A DNA stretch of 64,000 nt from Macrocystis pyrifera (taxonomy: Eukaryota; Sar; Phaeophyceae; Laminariales; Laminariaceae). The stretch is from contig JASSKH010000024.1 of the NCBI GenBank assembly GCA_031763025.1, positions 5,857,387 through 5,921,386 of the forward strand, given 5' to 3'. Under the pieces are notes generated by a model. That model was not told where the DNA came from. It saw only the letters and a list, made by a program, of their open reading frames with translations, and ran no database searches. Positions 22,305-64,000 of this stretch are shown piece after piece. Numbering within the stretch: position 1 is the stretch's first letter; every line of letters starts with the position of its first letter. Made by a program: the position numbers and the translations under genes.

Positions 22305-22309
22305 GTTTT

Positions 22310-30085: not shown

Positions 30086-33000
30086 TCGGGGCGCGTGATG
30101 TCCTACGCATTGCGCTCGTGTAGTGTCGCACCTGCAGGCGAAGCAAGAGCGTGAACTGCCAGCCCACAATATCAGTATGGTACACCTTGTTAGCTGTCAC
30201 CAATACGACCGCATCCTCTAGCCCGCAAATGAGTCCAGTGTGGGAGACTACTGGAACGTCATGAGTGTCCAAAACCGGTAGCTGGAGCCGGCGCGAAACG
30301 TTTCCATGAAGCGAAATCGGAGAAGTCCCCCCAAAGTGAGCTGTGCAGCCGAAAAAAACAAATGTGCAGGCACTGGTAAGCAGCGTGAAGTCCACCGGCT
30401 TGGCGTTTCGTTTTACTCCGCCATGAATGATATGGCGGCCGTGTATTATTGCGGGGTAATGATGGCAGCGAAACAGAACGACTCCGCCGCGTGTGAATAC
30501 CTTACATACCAACGTGGTCGATACGGTATGTTACGAGTTTTATCTGGAACGGGAATTTAGGCTCGCCTCATACGACGACGTCAATGTGCTGCTACTCGTA
30601 CGCCAGGGTTTTTCACCGATGGGGGCCCTTAGCTCAACCAATGCACACGCCTAGCCAAACAGTTGATTTGGATCGGTATATCCTTAGCAAGACTTGTATT
30701 ACTAAGATAGGATTCACCCGAAACCTATTCATGCCTGTACCCTAGGGGTGGGGCGTCTTCAAAGGCTGCAAACAAACACACCGAAAAAACCGTTGTGGCC
30801 AGAAGAAAGTCCGAGTTTAGATCGACAGGTTAGAGGCCTGTTCAGAGCTAATAGCCTGTCGGCGCGCTCAGGACAGTGGTGAAATAGGTGTGCGGGTCTG
30901 AGGGCAACGCACAATGAACAAACGTATCCAACGTGACCTACGCAAGAAATACTTCACACTATAAAATGATAACATGATCTGCATCCCTCGGCCACCCTGA
31001 GCGCTCGCGATGGTGCTGTGCTGCCGACGACGGCGAGGGTCCGGACGAAAAAAAGGGAACCGCTCGGCAACCACAGCAGCTGCTGCAGTTACGTCACTAT
31101 CCATAACCGAGTCGGTGTTTAGTGTGCAACCGCTTGCTGCAAATGTGTCGAGTTTCGTGACAAGGTGGCGTTGTTCGCTAGATCTGTTGCGATATCAATG
31201 GCGAATTTTACCTAGTGAAGCATTTTTCCACCATGCCTGGTAACTTTTCGAAGAACGGCACGGTAGGATGAACTACTGCTGCCGTCAAACCAGGTAGCGC
31301 GGTAATACATTTACACGGGGCATCCCACGCTTCATCCTGGGAACATACGCAGACGCCCTTGCTAAATTAACATAGGACCCGCAAATCCGCCAGCGTAGGT
31401 CAATCCTCGCCAGCTAGCGCACGTAACGCAAACAAAATCGTCCTTCCCCCATGACAAAGGATGCTTCGTCATCAACAACAAAACAAGTTCACGCATCCGT
31501 TTGACTTACTGCAGTTGAACACGTAGTTTAGGCTTACTGCTGTACATGGTCAGTGCGGACACCGAAGAACTTCCAGTGCTCATTTTCCACAACGCTTGTT
31601 GCCACTGCCACTGCCGCACGCAATCCAATCGAATTCTGCCGACATAAATGGTACCGATGATGTCGCTCCAACTTTGGCTGCAAAATACTGTCGACACCTC
31701 TCGAGAAAAGGGTATCAAATAGTTCCTCGGCAATCGTGCCTTACCCGTGCATGGCTCCCGCAGGGGAAGGTAGCCCAGGAAGGTGTTGGCGTGGACGCCC
31801 CGAATCCACCGTCAGCACCTTGGGGGAGGTCATTACGGGCAAGTCCGGTGCCCTCATGGGCAAGGCGAGGACTGCTGCGCCGTGTGTGCCCTGCATCGCG
31901 GCGGTGGTGAAGGAGGACAGGTTTCGTCCGTGGTCAATGTGCACACCCAGCCAGGACTACTCGGCAGCAACAGCAACAGCAGCTGCAAGAAGGAGAGGGG
32001 GGTGAACATGAAAACGGCCGCACTGCTGCAATGGGCTCTCAGCCGCATACAGCAACAACGCTTCCAAGTACACAATTATTTGCGCCAACTACCGCATCTA
32101 TGGCAGACATCGTAACGTCGTTAGGCTTGCCAACTCGACTAGATGACTATTATCAGTCAAACTGGCTAGTTTGTGTTGCCACGTCGAATATATGGAAGAA
32201 AATGAGACGAGAATGGTGGTTTTAGGGGTCAGGAATGCTGGAGGGGGAACTCGTCCGAGCAAGGGTCATACAGTTAAAAAAACATTTTTCCTGACTTTCT
32301 TCTTCCAGAAAATAACAGAGGGAAAGGAGGAAACCGATAGAAAAACAATCCTTCATCACGACATTTACTAGAAAGAAAAAAATCAGAAACACATAGATTT
32401 TCTCTGTGTGGAAATTAAATCAGGATAATCAGCGAAAATAAAAGTAAAAACAGGAAAAACAACCAGGAAAACCAGGAGTTTTAGGACAAAGCACTCTTCG
32501 ACCATAACGACCCCAATTACTCGGTACAGCAGTGCAGTGGTTACAAATAGTGTTGTTCCATGCGCGTCCCGACGTCCCGCACATGGCTACACTGTTGGGG
32601 CCCATTTTACCCCAAAGCTTCACAACATAGACGCAGTAAAACAGCCACCTATAAATGAGGGTATGAGCTGCGCTCGGCATAACGGCTCTCTCTATTAGCA
32701 AGCGATATCGAAGAGGCCAACACGAGGAAAGCAAAGCGCTAGCCTTGAGCAGTTGCCTACAATTCGAAATCTATTGGTGGTGGTTTTCACACGCCACCAA
32801 CAGTAGGAGTCGTGAACGTCAAGCAAGATGTACGTATTTTATAGTTATGGGCGAGTGTCTGATTTTCCTGCGTACTACCTACATGGCAGATTTCATCTCG
32901 CCTCCGAGGGACTGGGAGTTTGTGTCGTTCCTGCGGTCCAGACTAGTTCTTCGACAAGGAACCGTACACAGTAGTTCAAGTGTCATGTGGGTAGCAGAGT

Positions 33001-33621
33001 TGCCTCATACGAGCTTAGCGCGTGACACGCTGTCAAATCCTGCCATAAGTAACAACTAATGTGCCGGACGCTGCTTTGGCTGTGCATGGTCGTTTACGAC
33101 TCCAGCATTATCTCAATGGCACAACATGACTGTGTTCGCAGAGCAGCACGGATACCTCACGCAGTACCCGCAAAGGACAACCCATAGCAAACCTAACACC
33201 CGCGATTCGGTTGAATGGGTGAACCCACAGCCAACCAAACGATTGACCTCAGCTGCGCGGGTGATCTAAACGTATACCTACTTCGTCTCGGCCTGTTTCG
33301 ATATACAAGGTATGTAACACAACCGTCGCCAATTCGTGCCACGTTATCTGGGCTCTATACTCGTACTGCTTCTATGTCTTCGCCTACGGTAGCGTAGGGT
33401 ACGAGGGTAACATGCAACGGTATACGCGCAACCCGAAACATGTACAGCATGGCGAATAGCCCGATCGTACCGGGGCACCTCCACCGCGACTGATTTCGAT
33501 ACCCAGCCTTTCACTAAAACAAAACCCAATACCCCGCGGCGGCTACCCAGATTTTTATGTACAACGTTCGGCAATCGCACGCAAGGGAGGGCATGCATTG
33601 TAATCACCACACGGTACACAC

Positions 33622-33681
33622 CTCGTCGTGCACGCGGATAAGGGCTCGAGACCCGTCCCCAGCAGAAACCCGGCTAAACTC
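33622..33681 (-). CDS. Alpha-module exon X, unit 1
   Basis: The 60-nt, phase-0 segment between acceptor ATTGGACAG and donor GTGTGT encodes EFSRVSAGDGSRALIRVHDE. It is intact here and in units 2 and 4. Function unknown. Confidence 0.4.
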
Positions 33682-34084
33682 CTGTCCAATCATGACTGTC
33701 GGAGGAAACCATTCGCTCGAGGCAGAACTGTGGCGCTGTCGAACTACCATGGGCGAAGGGGGGAAAAACACGGAATGGTACGGCAAGGGGAGTGGTTCGG
33801 GAAGAGAAGGTATCGTCCGTGGCCCAGGGCTACTGCTGGACAGAGATAACGTGACAAGCTACACCTGTTGACGGAAAGACAAGGACATGACATACCTACT
33901 GAATTGTATGAATATGTCACATGTGGAACGGCAACATTGCTGTCGAAAATAGTGTCATATACAACAAATCCATTCATACGCTGCTAAAACACAAAATAAA
34001 CAGGGCGCCGAATATACATTATAGCACAGTGTGACGACTCGGGTGAACCCAAGATGATACAAGGCTACTATCTGTAGCTCTCAC

Positions 34085-34212
34085 CGATGGCGGCCATTGT
34101 CTCTGGTGTGAAGGGGATGACGATGGCACCGCCAGACACAGAAGCACCGGCGATGTCGGCCCTTCCGAGGAAGTACAGGCCCCCATCGAAAACACTGTCT
34201 CCACCACGTTCT
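34085..34212 (-). CDS. Alpha-module exon D, unit 1
   Basis: The 128-nt exon has acceptor CTTGCCTCCAG and donor GTGAGA. It encodes GGLYFLGRADIAGASVSGGA, then IVIPFTPETMAAI. Between D and the paralogous D' exons the frame is kept without indels (except D'1), with synonymous third-base changes in GAC/GAT, GCC/GCG and ACA/ACG codons, which supports real coding ancestry. Glycine-rich GGGLY plus the later GGAIW of exon E resembles parallel beta-helix repeats, but no family can be named. Confidence 0.45.
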
Positions 34213-34617
34213 CTGGAGGCAAGGCTAAACACATACCAGGGGTATCATACAACGAATGATCGAGGTGAGGGACATTCCAGCTTGCGGGGGTTGGGGAGCA
34301 TGGTCGGCCTTCTGCTTAAAGCTCGCTTCACATGTTCGCCGGACCTCTCGGGTCCGTGGTCGCAACAAGGCTGAACAACTAAGCATTAACAAAACGTAGC
34401 CAGGCACACAGCCAAACAAACGTCAGCACCCGCACCTCATGTACTCCATATGCCCGAGTATACAAAACATCGAAAACTAATCCAATGTCCAGTTGAATGG
34501 CAGAAGCAAGCAGGATTAAAACCGTTGAGCAGTTTTCTTCATAATTTGCTTGTATCGGGGCTGGTCACGCACCGGATCAAACGGTATTCTACAGGATGTA
34601 GCAGCCGTTTGTCGCAC

Positions 34618-34684
34618 TCGACCAAATCGACGCCGAACGGCACCATGGCAGCACCGACGCCCTCAAAGTCCCAGATGGGGCCGC
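34618..34684 (-). CDS. Beta-module exon E, unit 1 (chimeric downstream side)
   Basis: A 67-nt exon encoding GPIWDFEGVGAAMVPFGVDL. The donor is GTGCGA instead of GTGAGT because the sequence beyond the exon has been replaced by alpha-type DNA (junction at about 34,611-34,616). Confidence 0.4.
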
Positions 34685-35705
34685 CTGCAACGGAGCAGCG
34701 CATAATATGCAGAAAACGCATGTAAACAATTGAGCGTAGCGAGTACAGCGTCAGCCAGAAGCGAAACATACACGGATGGAAGATACGTCAAATGTGCAAA
34801 GAAAGGTACGCACGGATGAGGGGGGTTGTTTTACATAAGGACGAGGTTTAGTTGGTGGAGAACACCATGTATGCTGGTTCAAAAATCCTTGAGTGTTGAG
34901 GGGTAGAATGGCCCCACAGGCAAGTACAAACCAAAATTATTAGACCGTAAGAGACTCTTGCCTCTGTCTGGGTGCGCAGTGCGTGATTAGAGGTTCTCGC
35001 GATTGATGACCTGACAACTCAGGTTCAAGAACGGTACACAGCTAACCAAACGAGACGCTCCGGTACGTTGCCGAGAAAGACGAGCTACTCGCCCTCACAT
35101 GGTCTTGCAAGGGACAGAGACAGCGTATGGACGAAAGAATGATCGCCACACACGGCGGTGTGCCAAAATGCATATTGGGCTCAGCATATCCACGGTTAAT
35201 TACGTTCGGCCCTAGACAATCAAACCAATGAAACAACAACAAACGAAATTCCGGTCACGTTCTGCCCTGAGAACCACCAGAATATTTCGATTGTAGACCA
35301 AACGCGATCTTCAAACTGCATGTGGAGTACACGGCATGATATTGTGTTTGCTGTTGAAAACGGAACGTCCGAAGTGTTGCTCTGTTTGAAAACTCTCAAA
35401 GCTCGCTTGTTTGATTATTTATAGTTCAATCATCGTGCGGAAGAACGAGAGTACGTCAAAGCAAACAGAGCTCACTGCGCTAGCATAAGCAATGTAATGT
35501 TGCGAAAAACTGACAGCAACACCGTGTATCATCAGAAGTAGTGTTCAACTAGGGCTCCTGCGAAACAAAGCAGGTACTGTACAACCGTTCGTTGCAATCC
35601 GTGATCGCCGTGAGGTCTGTTGCTCGTACCAGGAGCGGTCGGCACTACGCGCAATTGCGAAGCCGTGACTACAATAACCTAGAGACGAGAACAGTAACAA
35701 CTCAG

Positions 35706-35871
35706 TTGGTTCGCCATGACATTTCAACTCCTACAAACACGGCAGTCGACAGAATGGCACGCACAAGCTGAACATAGGGGAACCACGCCGTGCTCTCGAA
35801 GAGCTTTAACGCTCGCTTGATGAGCAACGTCAACTCTTCAACGGCCACAGCGGTCAGTATATTGACGTGAC
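35706..35871 (-). pseudogene. Beta-module exon G, unit 1 first copy, donor lost
   Basis: The 166-nt open frame includes a TM-like stretch near its end, but the donor GT reads CT (ACCAA-CTGAGT), so splicing as in the 39,334 copy is not expected. Confidence 0.4.
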
Positions 35872-36169
35872 CTCGAGGGCGGTTTGACGCCAAGAAAATG
35901 CGACCGCCGTCTCTTTCGGTTCGGCAATGCACCCGTGACTTCTACACGCCTCCTCTGTCTCCCGAATAACGTAATCTAGCCACAAAAGCGCAATCATTAT
36001 ACCCTTCACGCAGCTCGGCTAGGTCAACAGCTCTGTCTCGCCCTCGATAAGCGAGTGAGTCATTATTCTACCTCTAGTCACCGTGCAGCGGTATTTGTGC
36101 GTCAAACCGTACGAGTCAGAAACAATCGTTCAATGCACGGACGGAGCCGACTCTGTATGTAGCTCTCAC

Positions 36170-36298
36170 ACGTTGGCGGTCCTCGTCTCTGGCGTGAAAG
36201 CGGTGTCGATCGCACGTTCAGACACAGAAGCACCGGCGATGTCGGCCCGACCGCGAAGGCACAGGCCCCCACAGAAAACACCGTCTCCCCCACGTTCC
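36170..36298 (-). pseudogene. Beta-module exon D', unit 1 first copy, +1 base
   Basis: 129 nt rather than 128, with an extra base near the donor. It encodes GRADIAGASVSERAIDTAFT before the shift. It is the most diverged D' copy. Confidence 0.4.
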
Positions 36299-38232
36299 CT
36301 GGAAGCAAGGACAAACAATTATAATACAATGAGAAAAATCATCAAGCAACAATAATCTAACGTCCAACGGAATAGAACAGATGAGCAGCAGCCGTTTGTC
36401 GAAGCTATCGGCATCTACGATGTTTTTTTCGTGTACCCCAAGGCTATGCTCCGATATCGACAACATGTCTCGGATTGGTGAACGTACGCCGTGTTCATCA
36501 CGACCGTGTAATAACAGTGGCTCAGAACGCGGAAAAATCCGCAGAAGAAAAACATCATGTTTTTTACCCTTCGCGCACATCAACACCGTTTTTCAACGAG
36601 ATACATACCCAGCAACGCCTGGAACGGCACGATACTGTTTCACAAAGGATCACGGCATGGGCACGATATCAAAACTTTGATATTGATTTCCTTCACGACA
36701 CCAAACACAGGGGCGACACTGCGTTGCACGCAGGTACGCAGGACAATCAGACAGGCACGGCTAGAACGAGGAGGGAAAGCATTCGTTCTTATACTTAGCC
36801 AGACAAAGCGCGGACGGGGTAGCGCAGTCCGATAATGGTAAACGCAACTTTCCCCAGGATGCGAGCACCAATCACATCTGACTTACAGTCCGTATGCAAA
36901 CCCCTGCACACTCATGTTGGAATCAATGACCACAACGATTGGTGGCTGCAAGAACGACGTCCTTTGTCCAGCTTCCGTGAACAAAGGCCGGCCTTAAGGC
37001 TTCTCCGAGAGTGGCGGCCCGCTTTGCGGACTAAAGCTTCCAGGCTGATGCAGCGGTAGTATGTTTGTCAAAACGAAGTACAGCCTCAGGGGGCGTTAAG
37101 GATGGTGCCTCTCACGAAATATCGACCAAGAGGACAAAGCCTTGCCATGACGGCAGGCGAGTAGCGTTGACAATATTCGTCTTCCACCAGTCAATCCAAG
37201 TTCACGGCCGGCGATCTAGAGATTCTCAGGAAAGTAGACGGGAATGCCGACAGACAAAACGAAGACACTAGAGGCGAAAAACGCGACCAACCAGTCCCAT
37301 CTCGACACAGGCGAGAAGCGATGAACCCAACACAGGAGTCGCACATAGCTAGTGGCTTTGTCTCCAACAAGACCAGCTGTTGTACCAGTGTCACCAATCA
37401 AACTAAATACAGCAGCAAATAGAGACGTTTAACACGCGGATCCACAACAACACCAACACCACCAACAAAAAGGCAAGCACGGTTTGCAACTCCAAGGAGG
37501 GAAAATGGTTGTAGTATTTCGGGAGACAAAGCGCCGACGCGGTAGCGCAGACTGAAAATGTTGTGCGCAGCTATGCCCAGGCAGAGATCGCTAATCACGT
37601 CTGTGCTATGCAAACCCCTGCACACTCATGAAGAAGGAAATGCCCACAACGATATGCCTCGCCGACAAGGGCTTTCCTAGAGCGGGGGGCCGTTTTGTAG
37701 AGTCAATGTTCCAGGCTGAAATAGTTGTCTTGTTTGCTTGTTGAAAGGGAGTACAGCTCAAGGGGGTGTGACGGTGCCCGCCTCGGCGTATCGCGCCAGA
37801 GGCAAGCCCTTGTCATGACGGCAAGCGTGGTGCGATCACAACAGTAGTCTTCCACCAGCCAAGTTCACGGCTGATGACTCAGAGGTTCTCATACAACTAG
37901 ACAAGGATGTCAATGGACGAAACGAAGACACTATGGGGAGAAAACGTGAATAAGCAGCAACATCCAGAAGCAGACAAGAAACGATTAACCAACCGCAGGG
38001 GTCGCAGCCCGTGACCTTGTCTATAGCAGGAACAGCCGCCGCATCAGTCTCACAAGGCTAAATCATTCCAGCAAAACCAAGAGAAGCAGGATCCTGGAAC
38101 AACAACGACAACATCAGCAATGATAATACCAAACAGGAAGCGGCGAGCCCTTGCGACCATGTGGTGCTCGAAATCAAGAGCTACAGCGACACACGTCCTG
38201 TGTAACAGAAACGACTCTACAAAGACACTCAC

Positions 38233-38299
38233 TCGACCAAATCGACGCCGAACGGCACCATGGCAGCACCGACGCCCTCAAAGTCCCAGATGGCGCCGC
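38233..38299 (-). CDS. Beta-module exon E, unit 1 second copy
   Basis: A 67-nt exon with acceptor TCCGTTGCAG and strong donor GTGAGT. It reads GGAIWDFEGVGAAMVPFGVD, then LV. Exon D' and exon E phases (one base then two bases) would also join in frame. Confidence 0.45.
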
Positions 38300-39333
38300 C
38301 TGCAACGGAGCAGCGCATAATTAGCAGAAAACGCATGTAAACAATTGAGCGTAGCGAGTACAGCGTCAGCCAGAAGTGAAACTTACACGGATGGAAGATA
38401 CGTCAAATGTGCAAAGAAAGGTACGCAAATATGAGAGGGGTTGTTTTACATAAGGACGAGCTTTAGTTAGTGGAGAACACCATGTATGCGGGTTCAAAAA
38501 TCCTTGAGTGTTGAGGGGTAGAATGGCCCCATAGGCAAGTACAAACCAAAATTATTAGACCGTAAGAGACTCTTGCCTCTGTCTGGGTGCGCAGTGCGTG
38601 ATTAGAGGTTCTCGCGATTGATGACCTGACAACTCAGGTTCAAGAACGGCACACAGCTAACCAAACGAGACGCTCCGGGTAAGTTGCCGAGAAAGACGAG
38701 CTACTCGCCCTCACATGGTCTTGCAAGGGACAGAGACAGCGTATGGACGAAAGAATGATCGCCACACACAGCGGTATGCCAAAATTATTATTGGGCTCAG
38801 CATATCCACGGTTAATTACGTTCGGCCCTAGACAATCAAACCAAGGGAACAACAACAAACGAAATTCCGGTCACGTTCTGCCCTGAGAACCACCAGAATA
38901 TTTCGATTGTAGACCAAACGCGATCTTCAAACTGCATGTGGAGTACACGGCATGATATTGTGTTTGCTGTTGAAAACGGAACGTAGGGAATGTTGCCCTG
39001 TTTACAAACTCTCAAAGCTCGCTTGTTTGTCTATTTATAGTTCAATCATCGTGTGGAAGAACGAGAGTACGTCAGAGCAAACAGAGCTCACTGCACTAGC
39101 ATAAGGCACATTTCTAGCAATAAATTGTTCCGGAAAGCTGACAGTAACACCGTGTATCATCAGAAGTAGTGTTCAACTAGTGCTCCTGCGAAACAAAGCA
39201 GGTACTGTACAACCGTTCGTTGCAGTCTGTGAACGCCACGAGGTCTGTGGCTCGTACCAGGAGCGGTCGGCACAACGCGCAATTGCGAAGACGTAACCAC
39301 AACAACTTAGAGACGATAACAGCAACAACTTAC

Positions 39334-39499
39334 TTGGTTCGCCATAATATTGCAACTCCTACAAACACGGAAGTCGACAGAATGGCACGCACAAGCTGAA
39401 CAAAGGGGAACGACGCCGCGCTCTCGAACAGCGTTAACGCTCCCTTGGTGAGCAACGTCAACTCTTCGACGACCACTGCGGTCAATCTATTGAAGTCAC
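39334..39499 (-). CDS. Beta-module exon G, unit 1 second copy (intact)
   Basis: The 166-nt exon has acceptor CTTCCTGCAG and donor GTAAGT. It completes a Gly codon from exon D' and then reads DFNRLTAVVVEELTLLTKGA, LTLFESAASF and the hydrophobic PFVQLVRAILSTSVFVGVAI. The 54-codon frame is kept in all four G copies. The hydrophobic segment suggests a membrane span. Only this copy has an intact donor. Confidence 0.5.
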
Positions 39500-39797
39500 C
39501 TGCAGGAAGGTTTGACGCCAAGCAAATGCGACCGCCGTCTCTGTCGGTTCGGCAATGCACCCGGGCCTTTTTCACGTCCCCTCTGCCTCCCGCATCACGT
39601 CATCTAACGACAAAGGCACAAAAAATATACCCTTCACGCAGCTCGGCCAACCCAACAGCTCTGTATCACCCTTGATAAATAAGCGAGTCATGATTCCTCC
39701 TCTAGTTGCCGTGCAGCGGCATTTGTGCGTCAAACCGTACGAGTCAGAAACAACCGTCCAATGCACGAAGCAGCTACCTACTATCTGTAGCTCTCAC

Positions 39798-39925
39798 CGA
39801 TGGCGGTCCTCGTCTCTGGCGTGAAAGCGGCACCGATCGTACATTCAGACACAGAAGCACCCGCGACATCGGCCCTTCCGGGAGGGTACAGGCCCCCACC
39901 GAAAACACAGTCTCCCCCACGTTCC
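39798..39925 (-). CDS. Beta-module exon D', unit 1 second copy
   Basis: A 128-nt exon with donor GTGAGA. It encodes GGGLYPPGRADVAGASVSEC, then TIGAAFTPETRTAI. It ends with one base that completes Gly with exon G. Confidence 0.45.
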
Positions 39926-42865
39926 CTGGAGGCGAGGACAAACATATACAATACAATTAAATGAATCAGCAAGCAACAGTAATCCAACGTCCAACGGAAT
40001 AGAATCAATGAGCAGCAGCCGTTTGTCGGAGCCATCGGCATCTACGATGTTTGTACATGTACCCCCAGGCTAGGCTCCGACATCGACAACATGTCTCGGA
40101 TTGGTGAACGTACGCCGTGTTCATCACGACCGTGTGATATCAGTGGTTCAGAACGCGGCAACATCCACAGAAGAAAACACCATGAATTTTACCCTTTGCG
40201 CACATCAGCACCGTTTCCAACGAGATACATGCCCAGTTACGCCTAGAACGGCACGATACTGTTTCACAAAGCGACACGGCACGAGCACGGCATCACATTA
40301 ATAGTGATTTTCGTTACGACACCAGACACAAGAACGACACTGCGTTGCATGCAGGTACGCATGACAAGCAGGCAGGAAACGGCCAGGAAGTCCAAAGAGC
40401 AGAAAATCTCGTTCTTATACTTAGTCAGACAAAGCGCGGACGGGGTAGCGCAGTTCGAGAATGGTACGCGCAACTTTCCAAACTGATCAAACCTCGGTCA
40501 ATCACCACATACGCACGTGATTGTCAAGGCAGACGAACAATCCACAAGGTTGCATACCCCTTGAGTGGTACATACTTGAGTTTGCGCGCCTCTGCACCAC
40601 GCAGCTTAACCTCATTTCAGCTCAAACCTTTCTTCTTGCCCCAGGCATTTCGTTTTACTCCGCGATGAATGATATGGCGGCCGTTTACTGTAGTGGGGAA
40701 TGATGGCAGCGAGACAGAACGACTCCGCCGCCTGTAAATACCTTATATACCAAAGTGGTCGATACGGTACGTTACGAGTTTCATCTGGAACGGGGATTTA
40801 GGCTCGCCTTGCACGACGACGTCAATGTGCTGCTACTCGCACGGTACGGCTTTCCATAAATGGGGGTCCTTAGCTGAACCAATGCATCTGAGGAGCAACC
40901 CAATATCGTCAGATTCGATTCGTATTTTACTGCACCTGTTTCGTCAGATACCGTGTCCATGAGATTGTTGGATCTGGCGTACCACGTGTCTTCTATTAAT
41001 CGTGCCTATCGAACCCGGGTGCTTGCGTGAGGTACTGCAGATGCGATACGTGCCACCCGTACGTGTACTCGGTACCACACATGACATACGTAGCCATACA
41101 CGCGGGGCTCAAAACGCTCGTGACTAGCAGAATCGGTGACTACAAATAGTAACTAACGCACACGCCCAGCCAAACAGTTGACTTGGGTCGGCATATCCTT
41201 AGCAAGACTTGTATTATTAAGATAGGATTCACCCGAAACCTATCCATGCCTGTACCCTAGGGGTGGGGGCGTCTTCAAAGGTTACTCTCAAACACACCGA
41301 AAATAACGTTGTGGCCGGAGGAAGGTCCGAGTTTAGATCGAGAGGGTAGATGCCTGTTCAGAGCTAATAGCCTGGCGGCGCGCTCAGGACAGTGGTGAAA
41401 TAGACGTGCGGGTCTGAGGGCAACGCAGAATGAACAAACGTATCCAACGTGGCCTAGGCAAGAAATACTTCACACGATAAAATGATAACATGATCTGCAT
41501 CCCTCGGCGACCCAGAGCGCTCGCGATGGTGCTGTGCTGCCGGCGACGGCGAGGGTCCGGACGAAAAAAAGGGAACCGCTCGGCAACCACAGCAGCTGCT
41601 GCAGTTACGTCGCTATCCATAACCGAGTTGGTGTTTAGTATCAGGCCTGTCAGGTGTAACGGCTTGCCGCAAATGTGTCGAGTTTCGTGACAAGGTGGCG
41701 TTGTTCGCTAGATCTGTTGAGATGTCAATGGCGTATTTTACCTGGTGAATCTTTTTCCCACGATGCCCGGTAACCTTTCGAAGAACGGCGCGGTAGGATG
41801 GATTGCTGCTGCCGTCAAACCAGGTAGCGCGCTAATACATTTACACGGTGCATCCTACGCTTCATCCTGGGAACATACGCACACACCCTTGCTAAATGGA
41901 CTTAGGACCCGCAAATCCGCCATCGTAGGCCAATCCTCGCCAGCTAGCGCACGCAACGCAAACAAAATCGTCCTTCCCCCATGACAAAGGATGCTTCGTC
42001 ATTAACAACAAAACAAGTTCACGCATCCGTTTTGACTTACTGCAGTTGAACACGTAGTTTAGGCTTACTGCTGTACATGTTCAGCGCGGACACCGAAGAA
42101 CTTCTAGTGTTCATTTTCCACAACGCTTGTTGCCACTGCCGCACGCAATCCAATCGAATTCTGCCGACATATATGGTACCGATGATGTCGCTCCAACTTT
42201 GGCTGCAAAATACTGTCGATACCTCTCGAGAAATGGGTATCAAATAGTTCCTCGGTAATCGTGCCTTACCCGTGCATGGCTCCCGCAGGGGAAGGTAGCC
42301 CAGGAAGGTGTTGGCGTGGACGCCCCGAGTTCACCGTCAGCACCTTGGGGGAGCTAATTACGGGCAAGTCCGGTGCCCTCATGGGCAAGGCGAGGACTGC
42401 TGCGCCGTGTGTGCCCTGCATCGCGGCGGTGGTGAAGGAAGACAGGTTTCGTCCGTGATCAATGTGCACACCCAGCCAGGACTACTCGGCAGCAACAGCA
42501 ACAGCAGCTGCAAGAAGGAGAGGGGGGTGAACATGAAAACGGCCGCACTGCTGCAATGGGCTCTCAGCCGCATACAGCAACAACGCTTCCAAGTACACAA
42601 TTATTTGCGCCAACTACCGCATCTATGGCAGCCATCGTAACGTCGTTAGGCTTGCCAACTCGACTAGATGACTATTAACAGTCAAACTGGCTAGTTTGTG
42701 TTGCCACGTCGAATGCATGGAAGAAAATGAGACGAGAATGGTGGTTTCAGAGGGTCAGGAATGCTGGAGGGGGAACTCGTCCAAATAAGGGCCATTCAGT
42801 TAAAAAAACATTTTTCCTGACTTTCTTCTTCCAGAAAAGAAAAGACGGAAAAAAGAGGGAAACAC

Positions 42866-51282: not shown

Positions 51283-51341
51283 CTCATCGTGCACGCGGAT
51301 AAGGGCTCGAGACCCGTCCCAGCAGAAACCCGGCTAAACTC
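51283..51341 (-). pseudogene. Alpha-module exon X, unit 3, frameshifted
   Basis: Only 59 nt: one C is missing from the GTCCCCAGC run, so the frame changes after VSAG. The donor GTGTGT is kept. Confidence 0.5.
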
Positions 51342-51744: not shown

Positions 51745-51872
51745 CGATGGCAGCCATTGTCTCTGGTGTGAAGGGGATGACGATGACACCGCCAGACACA
51801 GAAGCACCGGCGATGTCGGCCCTTCCGAGGAAGTACAGGCCCCCACCGAAAACACCGTCTCCTCCACGTTCC
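51745..51872 (-). CDS. Alpha-module exon D, unit 3
   Basis: A 128-nt exon, frame intact: GGGLYFLGRADIAGASVSGG with VIVIPF after it. Confidence 0.45.
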
Positions 51873-52867: not shown

Positions 52868-53271
52868 GGGACTGGATTGACTGAGTCCCACCAGTCCCCC
52901 GGGTACCTGGTGGCTGAAATGACTTGAGTCCCACCAGTCCCCAGGCTGCTTGGGGGCTGAAAGGACTGAGTCCTGCCAGTCCCAAGAGTACCTAGGGTCT
53001 GAAAGGACTGAGTCTCGCCAGTCCGTAGGATACCTAGCGGCTGAAAGGACTGAGTCCCGCCAGTCCCAAGGTTATCTGGGGTCTGACATGACTGAGTCCC
53101 GCCTGTCCCAAGGGTATACCTGTGGAGCTAGAAGGACTGAGTCTCGTCAGTCGACAGGATGTCTGTAGGGGCTGAAGGACTGAGTCCCGCCAGTCCTCAG
53201 GGTACCTGAAACGACTAAATCTTGTTGGTCCCCGGCAGACTGAAAGGCCTGAGTCCTGCCAGTCGACAGGG
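52868..53271. repeat. 42-bp minisatellite J with hairpin units, unit 3
   Basis: About nine to ten units with core GGACTGAGTCCCGCCAGTCC, in which GGACTG and CAGTCC can pair. Central units are exactly 42 bp, so one plus-strand frame reads ERTESRQSxGYLxS repeatedly from 52,950 to 53,168. Flanking units break that frame. Confidence 0.8.
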
Positions 53272-53299
53272 TAGGAGAAGAAGCTGAACGGACTGGTAC

Positions 53300-54210
53300 C
53301 CGGACGACTGGTACTCTAACGACCTCTGAAGAACTGACTGCGTAGGGACCCATATCGAGTCATTTATAGCTCCAAAAGTGGATCCTAAACTGAAACTAAG
53401 TAATCAAGAGGCAACGCCTTACTTTTTGTACTTTCACCGCACAAAGGTCCAAAATGCCCACGCCGGTTTTTGGATATAAACCATGAATCTCGTCGCGCGT
53501 GTTCCCTGAACCCCTGCCTACCGGGTAAATAATGTTTTCGTTATCTACTGAGACCCAAATATCGCAAAAATATAACATTACATACTTACTTACAGTAGAA
53601 TTTATCTGGCGAGACAAAAGAAACAAAAACAAAACACTGTGTAACGGGTCGACAGGGTTTCATAGAAGACCTGGGATAAATTTCAGGGCACATCTCCCAA
53701 AAACGCCATGGAGATTGATTGGATGTTTAATACTTTTTGGGCGGCATGCTTGAACCAGCTCGTATGGTTCGCGACAGCATTTCCGTTTTTCTACCCGATA
53801 TCTAGTCACTTCAAGAACGGCACGACCGTGCTTCCCAAACGATCACGGCACGAGCACGACATCACAATATTCGTGACGACTTTTCTTTTACGGCACCGAC
53901 ACAGGCACGACTCTGCGTTCCACACGGGTACGGAGGCATTCTACGATAGAGGTGCACCCTAATTTTTCTGAGGCTCCTTTGTACCCCCAACATATAATGC
54001 GGAATTCAACCGGACAAACATATGAGTGCGACCGATCCTACACGCATCTCGTACGTGTACGTACGCATCGTGCCCAACGATGAAAAGCACAATTACATAC
54101 TCGTCGATCGAGTTCTGAAACATGAGGCGGCCGGTAAACACGCCGTGGTCGCTCAGATCCTTTTTTTCACGAATGTGATACCTCCATAAGAGAAAGCGCC
54201 TCTACGCATG
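53300..54210. other. Unassigned block in alpha module
   Basis: It is present in unit 3 and again at 62,900-63,805. A plus-strand stretch at 53,815-53,950 (NGTTVLPKRSRHEHDITIFV frame) aligns with beta sequence at about 40,245-40,380, which supports a common origin of alpha and beta modules. No gene is recognised. Confidence 0.5.
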
Positions 54211-54992
54211 ACACTCAGGCAAGCACGGTTTGCAACTCCAAGGAGGGAAAATGGCTGTAGTATTTCGGGAGCAAAAGCGCCGACGCGGTAGCGCAGACTG
54301 AAAATGTTGTGCGCAGCTATGCCCAGGCAGAGATCGCTAAACACGTGTGTGCTACGCAAACCCCTGCACATTCATGAAGAAGGCAATGCCCGCAACGATA
54401 TGCCTGGCCGACCAGGGCTTTCCTAGAGCGGGGGGCCGTTTTGTAGAGTCAACGTTACAGGCTGAAATGGTTGTCTTGTTTGCTTGTTGAAAGGGAGTAC
54501 AGCTCAAGGGGGCGTGACGGTGCCTGCCTCGGCGTATCGCGCCAGAGGCAAACCCTTGTCATGACGGCAAGCATGGTGCGATCACAACAAAAGTCTTCCA
54601 CCAGCCAAGTTCACGGCTGATGACCCAGAAGTCCTCATACAACTAGACAAGGACGTCAATGCACGAAACGAAGACACTATGGGGAGAAAACGTGAATAAG
54701 CGGCAACATCCAGAAGCAGACAAGAAACGATTAACCCAACGCAGGGGTGGCAGCCAATGGCCTTGTCTACAGCAGGAACAGCCGCCGCACCAGCCTCACA
54801 AGGCTGAATCATTCCAGCAAAACCAAGAGAAGCAGAATCGTGGAACAACAACGACAACATCAGCAATGAGAACAGTACCGAAATGGTACCAAACAGGAAG
54901 CAGCGTGCCCTTGCGACCATGTGGTGCTCGAAATCAAGAGCCACAGTGACACACGTCCTGTGTAACAGAAACGACTCTGCAACGACACTCAC

Positions 54993-55059
54993 TCGACCAA
55001 ATCGACGCCGAACGGCACCATGGCAGCACCGACGCCCTCAAAGTCCCAGATGGCGCCGC
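54993..55059 (-). CDS. Beta-module exon E, unit 3
   Basis: A 67-nt exon with intact acceptor and GTGAGT donor; GGAIWDFEGV is kept. Confidence 0.45.
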
Positions 55060-56094
55060 CTGCAACGGAGCAGCGCATAATTAGCAGAAAACGCATGTAA
55101 ACAATTGAGCGTAGCGAGTACAGCGTCAGCCAGAAGCGAAACTTACACGGATGGAAGATACGTCAAATGTGCAAAGAAAGGTACGCACGGATGAAGGGGG
55201 TTGTTTTACATAAGGACGAGCTATAGTTAGTGGAGAACACCATGTATGCTGGTTCAAAAATCCCTGAGTGTTGAGGGGTAGAATGGCCCCACAGGCAAGT
55301 ACAAACCAAAATTATGAGATCGTCCGAGACTCTTGCCTCTGTCTGGGTGCGCAGTGCGTGCTTAGAGGGTCTCGCGATTGATGACCTGACAACTGAAGTT
55401 CAAGAACGGCACACAGCTAACCAAACGAGACGCTCCGGGTAAGTTGCCGAGAAAGACGAGCTACTCGCCTTGACATGGTCTTGCCAGGGACAGAGACAGC
55501 GTATGGACGAAAGAATAATCGCCACACACAGCGGTGTGCCAAAATTAATATTGGGCTCAACATGTCCACGGTTAATAGCGTTCGGTCCTAGACAATCAAA
55601 CCAATGTAACAACAACAAACGAAATTCCGGTCACGTTCTGCCCTGAGGACCGCCAGAATGCTGCGATTGTAGACCAAACGCGACCATCAAACTGCATGTG
55701 GAGTACACCGCATGATATTGTGTTCGCTGTTCAAGACGGAACGTAGGGAATATTGCCCTGCTTACAAAGTCTCAAAACTCGCTTGTTTGTCTATGTATAA
55801 TGCAATCATCGTGCGGAAGAACGAGAGTACGTCAGAGCAAAGAGAGCTCACTGCGCTAGAGTAAGGCACATTTCTAGCAATATATTGTTACGGAAAGCTG
55901 ACAGCAACACCGTGTATCATCAGAAGTAGTGTTCGACTAGGGCTCTTGCGAAACAAAGCAGGTACAGTACAAGCGTTCGATGCAATCCGTGAACGCCACG
56001 AGGTCTGTGGCTCGTACCAGGAGCGGTCAGCACAACGCGCAGTCACGAAGACGTAACCACAATAACCTAGAGAAGAGAACAGTAGCAACTAACT

Positions 56095-56260
56095 TTGGTT
56101 CGCCATAATATTGCAACTCCTACAAACACGGAAGTCGACAGAATGGCGCGCACAAGCTGAACAAAGGGGAACGACGCCGCGCTCTCGAACAGCGTTAACG
56201 CTCGCTTGGTGAGCAACGTCAACTCTTCGACGGCCACAGCGGTCAATCTATTGAATTTTC
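56095..56260 (-). CDS. Beta-module exon G, unit 3, shifted donor
   Basis: The 54-codon frame is intact, but the only GT (GTTAGT) lies one base further on, so the spliced product would be out of phase with the 39,334 version unless the next exon compensates. Confidence 0.4.
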
Positions 56261-56553
56261 CTGCAGGAAGCTTTGACGCCAAGCAAATGCGACCGCGGTC
56301 TCTGTCGGTTCGGCAATGCAGCCTTTTTCACGCCCCCTCTGCCTCCCGCATCACGTCATCTAACGACAAACTCGTAAAAAATATACCCTTCACGGAGCTC
56401 GGCTAGCCCATCCGCTCAGTGTCACCCTCAATAAATAAGCGAGTCATGATTCCTCCTCTAGTTGCCGTGCAGCGGCATTTGTGCGTCAAACCGTACGAGT
56501 CAGAAACAACGCTCCAATGCCCGAAGCAGCTACCTACTATATGTAGCTCTCAC

Positions 56554-56681
56554 CGATGGCGGTCCTCGTCTCTGGCGTGAAAGCGGCACCGATCGTACAT
56601 CCAGACACAGAAGCACTCGCGACATCGGCCCTTCCGAGAGGGTACAGGCCCCCACCGAAAACACAGTCTCCCCCACGTTCC
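56554..56681 (-). CDS. Beta-module exon D', unit 3
   Basis: A 128-nt exon encoding GGGLYPLGRADVASASVSGC with donor GTGAGA. Confidence 0.45.
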
Positions 56682-59600
56682 CTGGAGGCGAGGACAAACA
56701 CATACAACACAATTAAACAAATCAGCAAGCAACAGTAATCCAACGTCCAACGGAATAGAACAAATAAGCAGCAGCCGTTTGTCGGAGCCATCGGCATCTA
56801 CGACGTTTGTACATGAGTCCCAAGGCTATGCTCCGACATCGACAACATGTCTCGGATTGGTGAACGCACGCCGTGTTCATCACGACCGTGTAATAACAGT
56901 GGTTCAGAACGCGGCAACATCCACAGAAGAAAACACCATGATTTTTACCCTTTGCGCACATCAGCACCGTTTTCAACGAGATACATGCCCAGTTACGCCT
57001 AGAACGGCACGATACTGTTTTACAAAGAGACACGGCACGAGCACGGCATCACATTAATAGTGATTTTCGCTACGACACCAGACACAAGAACGACACTGCG
57101 TTGCAAGCAGGTACGCATGACAAGCAGGCAGGCACGGCCAGGAAGTCCAAAGAGCAGAAAATCTCGTTCTTATACTTAGTCAGACAAAGCGCGGACGGGG
57201 TAGCACAGTTCGAGAATGGTACGCGCAACTTTCCAAACTGATCAAACCTCGGCCAATCACCACATACGCACGTGATTGTCAAGGCAGACGAACAATCCAC
57301 AAGGTTGCATACCCCTTGAGTGGTACATACTTGGGTTTGCGCGCCTCCGCACCACGCAACTTAACTTCATCTTTCTTCTTGCCCCAGGCATTTCGTTTTA
57401 CTCCGCGATGAATGATATGGCGGCCGGCCGTTTACTATAGTGGGGAATGATGGCAGCGATATAGAACGACTCCACCGCCTGTAAATACCTTATATACCAA
57501 AGTGGTCGATACGGTACGTTACGAGTATTATCTGGAACAGGGATTTAGGCTCGCCTTGCACGACGACGTCAATGTGCTGCTACTCGCACGGTAGGGTTTT
57601 CCACAAATGGGGGTCCTTAGCTGAACCAATGCATCTGAGGAGCAACCCAATATCGTCAGATTCGATTCGTATTTTACTGCACCTGTTTCGTCAGATACCG
57701 TGTCGATGAGATTGTTGGATCTGGCGTACCACGTGTCTTCTATTAATCGTGCCTATCGAACCCGGGTGCTTGCGTGAGGTAGTGCAGATGCGATACGTGC
57801 CACCCGTACGTGTACTCGGTACCACACATGACATACGTAGCCATACACGCGGGGCTCAAAACGCTCGTGACTAGCAGAATCGGTGGCTAATAATAGTGAC
57901 AAACGCACACGCCCAGCCAAACAGTTGATTTGGGTCGGCATATCCTTAGCAAGACTTGTATTATTCAGATAGGATTCACCCGAAACCTATTCATGCCTGT
58001 ACCCTAGGGGTGGGGGCGTCTTCAAAGGTTACCACCAAACACACCGAAAATAGCGTTGTGGCCGGAGGAAGGTCCGAGTTTAGATCGAGAGGGTAGATGC
58101 CTGTTCAGAGCTAATAGCCTGTCGGCGCGCTCAGGACAGTGGTGAAATAGGTGTGCGGGTCTGAGGGCAACGCAGAATGAACAAACGTATCCAACGTGGC
58201 CTACGCAAGAAATACTTCACACTATAAAATGATAACATGATCTGCATCCCTTGGCGACCCAGAGCGCTCGCGATGGTGCTGTGCTGCCGGCGACGGCGAG
58301 GGTCCGGACGAAAAAAAGGGAACCGCTCGGCAACCACAGCAGCTGCTGCAGTTACGTCGCTATCCATAACCGAGTTGGTGTTTAGTATCAGGCCTGTCAG
58401 GTGCAACGGCTTGCTGCAAATGTGTCGAGTTTCGTGACAAGGTGGCGTTGTTCGCTAGATCTGTTGAGATGTCTATATCGTATTTTACCTGGTGAATCTT
58501 TTCCCACAATGCCCGGTAACCTTTCGAAGAACGGCGCGGTAGGATGGATTGCTGCTGCCGTCAAACCAGGTAGCGCGCTAATACATTTACACGGTGCATC
58601 CTACGCTTCATCCTGGGAACATACGCACACACCCTTGCTAAATTAACTTAGGACCCGCAAATCCGCCATCGTAGGCCAATCCTCGCCAGCTAGCGCACGC
58701 AACGCAAACAAAATCGTCCTTCCCCCCTGACAAAGGATGCTTCGTCATTAACAACAAACCAAGTTCACGCATCCGTTTTGACCTACTGCAGATGAACACG
58801 TAGTTTAGGCTTACTGCTGTACATGTTCAGTGCGGACACCGCGGAACTTCCAGTGCTCATTTTCCACAACGCTTGTTGCCACTGCCGCACGCAATCCAAT
58901 CGAATTCTGCCGACATATATGGCACCGATGATGTCGCTCCAACTTTGGCAGCAAAATACTGTCGATACCTCTCGAGAAAAGGGTATCAAATAGTTCCTCG
59001 GTAATCGTGCCTTACCCGTGCATGGCTCCCGCAGGGGAAGGTAGCCCAGGAAGGTGTTGGCGTGGACGCCCCGAGTTCACCGTCAGCACCTTGGGGGAGG
59101 TCATTACGGGCAAGTCCGGTGCCCTCATGGGCAAGGCGAGGACTGCTGCGCCGTGTGTGCCCTGCATCGCGGCGGTGGTGAAGGAGGGCAGGTTTCGTCC
59201 GTGGTCAATGTGCACACCCAGCCAGGACTACTCGGCAGCAACAGCAACAGCAGCCGCAAGAAGGAGAGGGGGTGAACATGAAAACGACCGCACTGTTGCA
59301 ATGGGCTCTCAGCCGCATACAGCAACAACGTTTGCAAGTACACAAATATTTGCGCCAACTACCGCATCTATGGCAGCCATCGTAACGTCGTTAGGCTTGC
59401 CAACTCGACTAGATGACTATAAACAGTCAAACTGGCTAGTTTGTGTTGCCACGTCGAATATATGGAAGAAAATGAGACGAGAATGGTGGTTTTAGGGGTC
59501 AGGAATGCTGGAGGGGGAACTCGTCCGAATAAGGGTCATTCAGTTAAAAAACATTTTTCCTGACTTTCTTCTTCCAGAAAAGAAAGGAGGGAAACACTAA

Positions 59601-60886
59601 GAAACATTTCCTTCGTTATGACATTCACCAGAGGGAAAAAAAAAAATCAGGAACACTTACATTTTCTCTTTGCGGAAATTAAATCAGGAGAATCAGCGAA
59701 AATAAAAGTAAAAACAGGAAAAACAACCAGGAAAACCAGGAGTTTTAGGACAAAGCACTCTTCGACCATAACGACCCCAACTACTCGGTACAGTGCAGTG
59801 GATACAAATAATGTTGTTCCATGCGCGTCCCGTCGTCCCGCACATGGCTACACTGTTGGGGCCCATTTTACCCCAAGGCTTCACAACATAGACGCAGTAA
59901 AACAGCCACCTATAAATGAGGGTATGAGCTGCGCTCGGCGTAAAGGCTCTCTCTATTAGCAAGCGATATCGAAGAGGCCAACACGAGGAAAGCAAAGCGC
60001 TAGCCTTGAGCAGCTGCCTACAAGTCGAAATCTGTTGGTGGTGGTTTTCGCACGCCACCAACAGTAGGAGTCGTGAACGTCAAGCAAGATGTACGTATTT
60101 TATACTTATGGGCGAGTGTCTGATTTTCCTGCGTACTACCTACATGGCAGATTTCATCTCGCCTCCGAGGGACTGGGAGTTTGTGTCGTTCCTGTGGTCC
60201 AGACTAGTTCTTCAACAAGGAACCGTACACAGTAGTTCAAGTGTCATGTGGGTAGGAGAATTGCCTCATACGAGCTTAGCGCGTGACACGCTGTCAAATC
60301 CTGCCATAAGCAACAACTAATGTGCCGGACGCTGCTTTGGCTGTGCATGGTCGTTTACGATCATACGGAAACTCCAGCATTATCTCAATGGCACAACGTG
60401 ACTGTGTTCGCAGAGCAGCACGGATACCTCACGCAGTACCCGCAAAGGACAACCCATAGCAAACCTAACACCCGCCATTCGGTTGAATGGGTGAACCCGC
60501 AGCCAACCAAACGATTGTCCTCAGCTGCTCGGGTGATCTAAACGGATACCTACTTCGTTTCGGCTTGTTTCGATATACAAGGTATGTAACACAACCGTCG
60601 CCAATTCGTGCCACGTTATCTGGGCTCTATACTCGTACTGCTTCTATGTCTTCGCCTACGGTAGCGTAGGGTACGAGGGTAACATGCAACGGTATACGCG
60701 CAACCCGAAACATGTACAGCATGGCGAATAGCCCGATCGTACCGGGGCACCTCCACCGCGACTGATTTCGATACCCAGCCTTTCACCAAAACGAAGCCCG
60801 CGGCGGCTACCCAGGTTTTTATGTACAACGTTCGGTAATCGCACGCAAGGGGGGGGCATGCATTGTAATCACCACACGGTACACAC

Positions 60887-60946
60887 CTCGTCGTGCACGC
60901 GGATAAGGGCTCGAGACCCATCCCCAGCAGAAACCCGGCTAAACTC
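60887..60946 (-). CDS. Alpha-module exon X, unit 4
   Basis: 60 nt, intact EFSRVSAGDGSRALIRVHDE with donor GTGTGT. Confidence 0.4.
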
Positions 60947-61340
60947 CTGTCCAATCATGACTGTCGGAGGAAACCATTCGCTCGAGGCAGAACTGTGGCG
61001 CTGTCGAACTACCATGGGCGGAGGGAGGATAAACACGGAATGGTACGGCAAGGGGAGTGGTTCGGGAAGAGAAGGTATCCTCCGGCTACTGCTGGACAGA
61101 GATAACGTGACAAGCCATACCTGTTGACGGAAAGACAAGGACATGACGTACCTACTGAATTGTATGAATATGTCACATGTGGAACGGCAACATTGCTGTC
61201 GAAAATAGTGTCATATACAACAAATCCATTCATACGCTGCTAAAACACAAAATAAACAGGGCGCCGAATATACATTATAGCACAGTGTGACGACTCGGGT
61301 GAACCCAAGATGATACAAGGCTACTATCTGTAGCTCTCAC

Positions 61341-61468
61341 CGATGGCGGCCATTGTCTCTGGTGTGAAGGGGATGACGATGACACCGCCAGACACAGAAG
61401 CACCGGCGATGTCGGCCCTTCCGAGGAAGTACAGGCCCCCACCGAAAACACCGTCTCCACCACGTTCC
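61341..61468 (-). CDS. Alpha-module exon D, unit 4
   Basis: A 128-nt intact exon with the same peptide as unit 3. Confidence 0.45.
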
Positions 61469-62465
61469 CTGGAGGCAAGGGTAAACACATACCAGGGGTA
61501 TCATACAACGAATGATCGAGGTGAGGGACATTCCAGCCTGAGGGGGTTGTGGAGCATGGTCGACCTTCTCCTTAAAGCTTGCTTCACATGTTCGCCAGAC
61601 CTCTCGAGTCCGTGGTCGCAACAAGGCTGGTCAACCAAAGCATTAACAAAACGTAGCCAGGCACACAGCCAAACAAACGTCAGCACCCGCACCTCATGTA
61701 CTCCATATGCCCGAGTAAAAAAAACAATCAAAAACGCTAATCCAACGTCCAGTTGAACGGCAGAAGCAAGCAGCATTAAAACCGTTGAGCAGTTTTCTTC
61801 ATAATTTGCTTGTATCGGGGATGGTCACGCACCGGAACAAACGGTATTCTACAGGATGTAGCAGCCGTTCGTCGCAGGCATCGGCATTTGCGATGTTTGC
61901 ACATGGACCCCAACGCTAAGTCCCTACCATCGACAGCAAGTCTCGGATTTGTGGATCTATGCCATGTTCATGACAACTGTGTGGTATCAGTTGGTGAGAA
62001 GGCGGCAACTCCCACTGAAGATTATTCCGCGGTTAGTTACTGGCTGGCTGAAGTGTATCACCCTAAATTGGTCCGCCACGAATGCCGATCGCAATGCCTA
62101 CTCGAGTGTCACATCTTTGATATCGTACTGACCGTAAAGAACAGCGGAAGAGGGTGACATAGCCCGTTTTCTGTTCAAAGGGCCTAGTGCGGGCGCTATC
62201 GGTCGAATTGTGTCCCGGCCAACCACAGGCATTCAAAAAGGTCTCAAAATAGTCAGGAGTTTCCCTGGGAACAACCCAGTTTGGTAACGTTTTTTTGTTC
62301 TGAACGAACCTGTTTCAGGTACCCCAAGGCATGTCTGTAAAACATTTCACGCCAATGTTCGAAGAGCTGCAAGCTTCATCAGAGTACCTGTCGCAGCCTT
62401 CGGGACTCAGTCAATGATGCACCAGTCCAAGCCCTTTTCGAGGATCCAGCCCTCAGGGTACCTGG

Positions 62466-62868
62466 GGGACTGGATTGACTGAGTCCCACCAGTCCCCCGG
62501 GTACCTGGTGGCTGAAATGACTTGAGTCCCACCAGTCCCCAGGCAGCTTGGGGGCTGAAAAGACTGAGTCCTGCCAGTCCCAAGAGTACCTAGGGTCTGA
62601 AAGGACTGAGTCTCGCCAGTCCGTAGGATACCTAGTGGCTGAAAGGACTGAGTCCCGCCAGTCCCAAGGTTATCTGGGGTCTGACATGACTGAGTCCCGC
62701 CTGTCCCAAGGGTATACCTGTGGAGCTAGAAGGACTGAGTCTCGTCAGTCGACAGGATGTCTGTAGGGGCTGAAGGACTGAGTCCCGCCAGTCCTCAGGG
62801 TACTGGAAATGACTAAATCTTGTTGGTCCCCGGCAGACTGAAAGGCCTGAGTCCTGCCAGTCGACAGG
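62466..62868. repeat. 42-bp minisatellite J, unit 4
   Basis: Same unit order and unit count as J in unit 3 with only a few substitutions. The in-frame ERTESRQS repeat is kept at 62,548-62,766. Confidence 0.8.
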
Positions 62869-64000
62869 GTAGGAGAAGAAGCTGAACGGACTGGTACCCG
62901 GACGACTGGTACTCTAACGACCTCTGAAGAACTGACTGCGTAGGGACCCATATCGAGTCATTTATAGCTCCAAAAGTGGATCCTAAACTGAAACTAAGTA
63001 ATCAAGAGGGAACGCCTTACTTTTTGTACTTTCACCGCACAAAGGTCCAAAATGCCCACGCCGGTTTTTGGATATAAACCATGAATCTCGTCGCGCGTGT
63101 TCCCTGAACCCCTGCCTACCGGGTAAATAATGTTTTCGTTATCTACTGAGACCCAAATATCGCAAAAATATAACATTACATACTTACTTACAGTAGAATT
63201 TATCTGGCGAGACAAAAGAAACAAAAACAAAACACTGTGTAACGGGTCGACAGGGTTTCATAGAAGACCTGGGATAAATTTCAGGGCACATATCCCAAAA
63301 ACGCCATGGAGATTGATTGGATGTTTATTACTTTTTGGGCGGCATGCTTGAACCAGCTCGTATGGTTCGCGACAGCATTTCCGTTTTTCTACCCGATATC
63401 TAGTCACTTCAAGAACGGCACGACCGTGCTTCCCAAACGATCACGGCACGAGCACGACATCACAATATTCGTGACGACTTTTCTTTTACGGCACCGACAC
63501 AGGCACGACTCTGCGTTCCACACGGGTACGGAGGCATTCTACGATAGAGGTGCACCCTAATTTTTCTGAGGCTCCTTTGTACCCCCAACATATAATGCGG
63601 AATTCAACCGGACAAACATATGAGTGCGACCGATCCTACACGCATCTCGTACGTGTACGTACGCATCGTGCCCAACGATGAAAAGCACAATTACATACTC
63701 GTCGATCGAGTTCTGAAACATGAGGCGGCCGGTAAACACGCCGTGGTCGCTCAGATCCTTTTTTTCACGAATGTGATACCTCCATAAGAGAAAGCGCCTC
63801 TACGCATGACACTCAGGCAAGCACGGTTTGCAACTCCAAGGAGGGAAAATGGCTGTAGTATTTCGGGAGCAAAAGCGCCGACGCGGTAGCGCAGACTGAA
63901 AATGTTGTGCGCAGCTATGCCCAGGCAGAGATCGCTAAACACGTGTGTGCTACGCAAACCCCTGCACACTCATGAAGAAGGCAATGCCCGCAACGATATG

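Follow-up and report, generated by a model that had tools for sequence, protein, structure and literature searches.

The giant kelp Macrocystis pyrifera carries a tandem array of minus-strand modules in a 64,000-nucleotide (nt) stretch of contig C205 (positions 5857387-5921386, forward strand; hereafter the window). The modules hold a short cassette, termed x1, whose reading frame and splice-like borders are conserved, and the same module repeats in a second array on contig C208. We consider it probable that a minus-strand module was amplified and then rearranged by nested unequal exchange, with x1 as a lineage-specific, fast-evolving exon. Judged from the sequence, the likeliest reading of x1 is a true protein-coding exon from a family of small genes that evolves fast and is restricted to the lineage.

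Organization of the array on C205

Self-BLAST of the window revealed long direct repeats in a single orientation, starting at 30402 and reaching the end of the window. Most are 87-97% identical over kilobases, far exceeding chance expectation. Among the matches listed the modules align plus/plus, that is, head to tail, and each of the 12 x1 copies found in the array lies on the minus strand. The first-pass annotation had described a tandem array of four successive 7-10 kb units; this comparison confirms it, with unit starts 10.2, 7.0 and 9.8 kb apart, and the array is larger than was described. It spans ~57 kb, from ~28.5 kb in the window to ~21 kb beyond its right end. With the numbering carried past 64000 into the right flank (window-based coordinates), it continues to ~85.1 kb with the betas b5, b6 and b7 and a diverged outer module, and this right part has recent duplications of its own (97.8% and 96.8% identity). 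At the left edge, 28.5-28.9 and 29.7-30.1 kb each hold a weak relative of part of the A body.

The blocks were named as follows: A is the alpha body including x1, B is the beta block, and C+S and V are the upstream parts of the alpha and beta modules, respectively. Their order is A1 B1 V1 S1 B2 / A2 B3 / A3 C1 S2 B4 / A4 C2 S3. As annotated, unit 1 has two betas (B1 and B2), and units 3 and 4, both carrying C+S, are the fullest. Unit 2 is without C+S, which is taken here as the alpha "I-J-H-K" block said to be missing from it, under letters left undefined. One correction is needed, in that unit 1 shares the direct A|B joint with unit 2.

30402..34616, minus: A1, alpha block (4-kb body plus x1), joined straight to B1 (self-BLAST, joint comparison)
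34085..34212, minus: x1 cassette a1, 128 nt
34615..36853, minus: B1, beta block (self-BLAST)
36170..36298, minus: x1 cassette b1, 129 nt, one extra base at the donor
36853..37457, minus: V1, upstream segment of beta module 1, homolog of S
37471..38230, minus: S1, alpha-type upstream segment, joined to V1 without C
38230..40479, minus: B2, second beta block of unit 1
39798..39925, minus: x1 cassette b2, 128 nt
40644..45265, minus: A2, alpha block with a miniature inverted-repeat transposable element (MITE), joined straight to B3
42856..42975, unstranded: MITE-like inverted repeat in A2, TA-flanked, ends approximate
44734..44861, minus: x1 cassette a2, 128 nt
45264..47477, minus: B3, beta block
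46809..46936, minus: x1 cassette b3, 128 nt
47636..52278, minus: A3, alpha block with the same MITE as A2
49875..49994, unstranded: MITE-like inverted repeat in A3, ends approximate
51745..51872, minus: x1 cassette a3, 128 nt
52278..54217, minus: C1, upstream part of alpha module 3
54217..54990, minus: S2, homolog of V
54990..57234, minus: B4, beta block
56554..56681, minus: x1 cassette b4, 128 nt
57387..61876, minus: A4, alpha block without the MITE
61341..61468, minus: x1 cassette a4, 128 nt
61876..63815, minus: C2
63815..64000, minus: S3, running past the window to 64588

Both C blocks contain a 42-bp tandem repeat of ~8 copies (52857-53207 in C1, 62455-62803 in C2). A strong plus-strand A-over-T skew (~0.2) was seen at 36001-40000, 44001-46000 and 54001-56000.

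The alpha copies A1-A4 are 94.6-96.8% identical (3-5% apart), the whole betas B1-B5 88-95% (5-12% apart) and C1/C2 99.0%; for the right half of the beta block, b6 and b7 included, pairs range from 83.7% to 99.2% (b6/b7). Units of 7-10 kb commonly trouble assemblies, and the array might be one unit assembled several times. The assembly analysed comprises 537,376,219 bases in 223 contigs. The published genome description (PMC10498591) gives 537 Mb, 223 contigs and 50.37% GC from a haploid female gametophyte, sequenced with PacBio reads of mean length 15.8 kb at ~100x. Because the source is haploid, the reads long and deep and the A and B copies so diverged, with private indels and a MITE, an assembly artefact is extremely improbable.

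Relationship between alpha and beta modules

Alpha and beta had been proposed to be diverged paralogs. This holds for x1 (104/128 identical between a4 and b4), for the upstream Bb/C segment (76% identity) and for the S/V segment (67-72%), and is not detected for the 4-kb alpha body: profile searches of it against the beta blocks show only x1 in common (E 1e-3), and tblastx adds a few further short pieces, one of 44 amino acids at 27%. The long alpha body is thus not detectable as a paralog of the beta body.

The sister array on C208

A 1001-base DNA query of the genome gave at least 11 matches, ten on C205 and one, the sole listed match elsewhere, on C208. A peptide query also gave at least 11 matches, all on C205, and missed the outer copy and all C208 copies. 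On C208 the same module repeats over at least 8720017-8773086 (≥53 kb), and 11 V segments and 11 x1 copies were found there. One monomer-to-monomer offset is 2.8 kb. There is a 14.14-kb higher-order period: the stretch 8726000-8753275 is 96.6% identical to 8740138-8767450, compared with ~89-94% at monomer offsets among the matches listed (matches of at least 250 bases, alpha-profile matches starting in the MITE part being left out). The upstream V/S segments of C208 and C205 are 64-72% identical in the pairs compared.

Conservation of the x1 cassette

In all 12 C205 copies x1 starts at CAG|(G/A)G and is followed by GTGAGA. Its length there is 128 nt, with b1 at 129 nt and the outer copy at 131 nt. 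The 11 C208 copies, ten of them picked by a pattern demanding both border motifs and the eleventh read by eye, measure 113 or 119 nt, one 120. Despite several interior indels, the outer and C208 copies retain these borders, and the length is 2 mod 3 in 21 of the 23 copies, the exceptions being b1 and C208_8734802. Frame 1 has no stop in any of the 23, compared with stops in 16 and 8 copies in frames 0 and 2. A frame kept across indels was found for x1 only. If spliced and translated as predicted, x1 would be entered with one nucleotide of a codon, read for 37-43 codons and left with one nucleotide of the next.

A control scan was run on a 14-row module alignment, whose rows were ten C208 modules, b1, b5, b7 and the outer module, the alphas and b2-b4 not being included. 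It considered gapped windows of x1-like size with conserved ends, leaving out ungapped windows and merging neighbours. Ten of the 78 distinct windows keep their length class in at least 13 rows, in four a frame is open throughout the 14 rows, and three show both features, all at x1. This is a contrast within one alignment and not a probability, since the rows share ancestry and x1 had been seen before the test was designed.

Two other exon-like stretches were noted.

55803..55833 in B4, and from 35427 (B1), 39043 (B2) and 46076 (B3), minus: y, 31-nt run, candidate last-exon segment
59016..59161, minus: x2, second exon-like stretch in the alpha body (A4), ends set by eye, with relatives near 28.6 and 29.7 kb

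In the loci searched, y matched 15 times with 0-1 mismatch, once in every module where the relevant part of the beta block is present (5 on C205, 10 on C208). The preceding CAG gives the phase needed by the x1 donor in 13 of the 15, and a stop follows within 30 codons in 12 of these 13. With low confidence, we suggest that y is a candidate last exon to which x1 would be spliced; a promoter or other box is equally possible. For x2, both splice-like borders are common to the four alphas and the left relative L2, and the left relative L1 keeps the first border only.

Coding tests and alternative explanations

A number of observations weigh against a coding x1. The 23 copies are related and perhaps amount to three or four lineages; two of them, and two of the 15 y copies, are out of phase; ten of the 11 C208 copies owe their choice to both border motifs, though 11 V segments were found there too; and no exon was found upstream of x1. 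Variable columns in the 11 C205 copies compared show no codon-position bias (14, 15 and 14). In the seven 113-nt copies of the 11 on C208 they number 5, 7 and 8, with summed counts of 67 synonymous and 107 non-synonymous. The ratio of non-synonymous to synonymous differences (pN/pS) in frame 1 runs from ~0.5 to above 1. Divergence of x1 is close to that of its flanks: identity is 0.81 versus 0.76 for a4/b4, 0.86 versus 0.84-0.87 for b4/b5 and 0.69-0.73 versus 0.73-0.82 for the outer module, and in b1/b5 x1 is less conserved than the flanks (0.86 versus 0.91). As x1 is not slowly evolving, a coding exon would need relaxed or diversifying selection.

A permutation test likewise found no excess of synonymous change, its power being shown only for beta-like data at omega 0.2. 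No window reached p 0.05 among the open windows of alpha (119), beta (47) or V (16), and in the C208 modules 3 of 94 did (4.7 expected), none at 0.01. A simulated exon with omega 0.2 was found in beta-like data (9/28 windows at p 0.01) and with omega 0.5 was not (0/16); in alpha-like data even omega 0.2 gave 0/33 windows at p 0.01, so the alpha null carries no weight. Pfam scans of 30-39 and 54.2-64 kb (both strands), whose blocks also have copies in 39-54.2 kb, and of L009 and L010 in the right continuation gave no convincing match (best E 0.069). For the x1 peptides Pfam returned a single chance-level match (E 0.054, from 1 of 12 members) and PDB no relative at E 1, so that no recognisable domain was found in the stretches scanned or in x1. 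Rfam gave no match at gathering score in the window, and no known structured-RNA array was recognised.

These flat codon positions, the flank-like divergence, the lack of excess coding windows in alpha, beta, V or C208 modules and the missing Pfam and Rfam matches are what a non-coding macrosatellite would show, that is, a neutral tandem repeat with higher-order structure in which the frame and borders of x1 are relics or chance. They are set against a frame open in 23 of 23 copies, borders retained across interior indels in the outer and C208 copies, and the control scan, in which windows at x1 alone preserve the length class as well as an open frame in both arrays. We regard the macrosatellite as a possible but on balance doubtful explanation. 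The earlier description of the locus as one gene cluster is accordingly upheld only in part: x1 (113-131 nt) keeps its frame and splice-like borders, and Pfam, Rfam and codon-signal tests lend the cluster no support.

A further possibility is a single long gene in which one x1 at a time is joined to common upstream exons, as in Dscam. The array has 12 copies on one strand, most in the same phase (21 of all 23 x1 copies share the phase class, with two exceptions), and the x1 length is not divisible by 3, so that two x1 in one transcript would shift the frame. However, a separate array of the same module lies on another contig, C208, y seems to give the beta modules a last exon of their own, and no common upstream exon was found, nor any Pfam match at E 0.1 in the 84-104 kb region to the right. 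Constitutive exons common to both sides of the array were not found in the flanks, which were scanned with Pfam only. We consider this arrangement very unlikely. A broader proposal, itself distinctly unlikely, would see in the C205 and C208 arrays stores of rapidly evolving x1 exons, alike in phase and belonging to a gene specific to brown algae. These would serve as alternative exons of one transcript or as separate small genes, with unequal exchange continually reshuffling and diversifying a short secreted or recognition peptide.

Several other candidates were rejected. Known RNA genes, a Pfam gene within the array and a phage relative of the A2 block were looked for without a convincing match. 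The reading of x1 as a terminal exon ending in ESYR-stop was dropped because all 11 copies then known had the 5' splice-like GTGAGA inside it, and an open reading frame seen by eye in the V region was dropped because alignments showed that its frame is not kept in the outer and C208 copies. Low-pN/pS alpha windows in a plain scan (lowest 0.10, at 58287-58406) were unsupported by the permutation test, itself powerless for alpha. A beta-helix-like look of the x1 peptide was by eye only and is not claimed.

Duplication history of the arrays

The A1|B1 and A2|B3 joints are identical across the 61 bases compared, with C+S absent between A and B in both, and A3 and A4 continue into C instead of joining B directly. 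We infer that the common joint records a single ~2.7-kb loss of C+S that was later copied, loss being the presumed direction. The MITE is present in A2 and A3 and absent from A1 and A4. Pairings among the alphas shift along the block: at slice 0 the distance is 0.008 for A3/A4 and 0.066 for A1/A2, and at slice 3000 it is 0.018 for A1/A3 and 0.056 for A2/A3. Among the beta copies the left end differs by 3-6%; at the right end the distance of B1 and B5 from B2-B4 rises to as much as 19%, and B2-B4 themselves remain 2-4% apart in the last slice. A V/S tree splits the beta from the alpha types. It places the outer C205 module with C208 (support 99), and within the C208 array the copy at the edge has diverged furthest.

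Mosaic divergence along blocks is what unequal exchange and gene conversion would leave, and together with the common joints it fits such a process. The two nested levels of duplication and the series of unequal exchanges claimed by the first-pass annotation are both supported, the latter well, by the common joint, the block mosaic, the diverged edge modules and the higher-order repeats of C208, with crossing-over as the presumed cause. In the history that we propose, a minus-strand module of ~2.8 kb in its compact form, with one short exon x1, would have been amplified head to tail in giant kelp, after which unequal crossing-over and gene conversion would have built higher-order units. On C205 the product would be the ~57-kb array of alpha and beta modules with the 12 x1 copies found, and on C208 the 14.14-kb multi-module unit repeated over at least 53 kb with the 11 found there. 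Single events, namely the 2.7-kb C+S loss (units 1 and 2) and the MITE insertion (A2 and A3), would have been copied along the array, and most of each module would drift like intron or spacer.

Comparison with known systems

Comparable tandem arrays occur in many genomes, and macrosatellite or higher-order arrays include those of D4Z4/DUX4 type and alpha satellite. The kelp arrays resemble these in having kilobase units head to tail, higher-order periods, edge copies that are the most diverged, and mosaic homogenisation. They differ in comprising only ~11-12 modules each, on two contigs found so far; the kelp module has no known open reading frame such as DUX4, and the kelp arrays are not known to be centromeric. 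Tandem segmental duplications of gene families, which arise through unequal crossing-over, share with them direct repeats, block gain and loss, common breakpoints and conversion, whereas the gene content found here is one or two short exon-like stretches per module.

Among brown algae, exon shuffling at LRR-ROCO loci (LRR, leucine-rich repeat) involves 72-bp, phase 2 exons that each encode one LRR, as described (PMC11378527). There too short same-phase exons multiply and diversify; x1 differs in its length of 113-131 nt, in its phase pattern and in having no known domain, with no LRR match in the Pfam scans of the array stretches or of x1. A limited search of open-access titles and abstract openings found no record naming this locus, which is not a claim of absence from print.

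The repeat pattern is a familiar one; the putative gene holding x1 is not. Our best reading is that a commonplace process has acted on a short exon that evolves fast and is specific to the lineage. The locus offers a long-read example from a brown alga of array growth by nested unequal exchange, with the common joint, the MITE and the edge copies as markers for ordering events. As a short candidate coding exon, x1 is present in copies directly testable against RNA and, if expressed, the two arrays would together supply 23 natural variants of a single exon within one haploid genome.

Flanks and dispersed elements

Long frames of the left flank gave only chance-level matches in an insensitive search of PDB. 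To the left of the array, a C-terminal exon of ubiquitin carboxyl-terminal hydrolase (UCH) lies within 13781-14128 on the minus strand (Pfam E 5.4e-15, profile positions 197-254 of 254; PDB relatives Ubp8 and USP2). Its upstream exons, expected by strand towards the array, were not located. A 249-amino-acid open frame at 11426-12175, plus strand, spans three copies of a 151-bp repeat, which it reads in different frames because the period is not a multiple of 3. A 477-482 bp repeat occupies 22331-25149 in approximately three direct and two inverted copies, 89-94% identical.

MITE-like inverted repeats of ~112 bp with TA at their ends also occur elsewhere in the window (5411-5522 and 22199-22305), and relatives recur in the flanking and other loci read (L011, L012, L013, L025 and L026). 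In the right continuation (L009/L010), at ~67986-71179 and 73460-78803 (window-based), long inserts interrupt the beta-type sequence that precedes b6 and b7; the inserts contain dispersed-repeat matches and diverged tandem units of ~350 bp.

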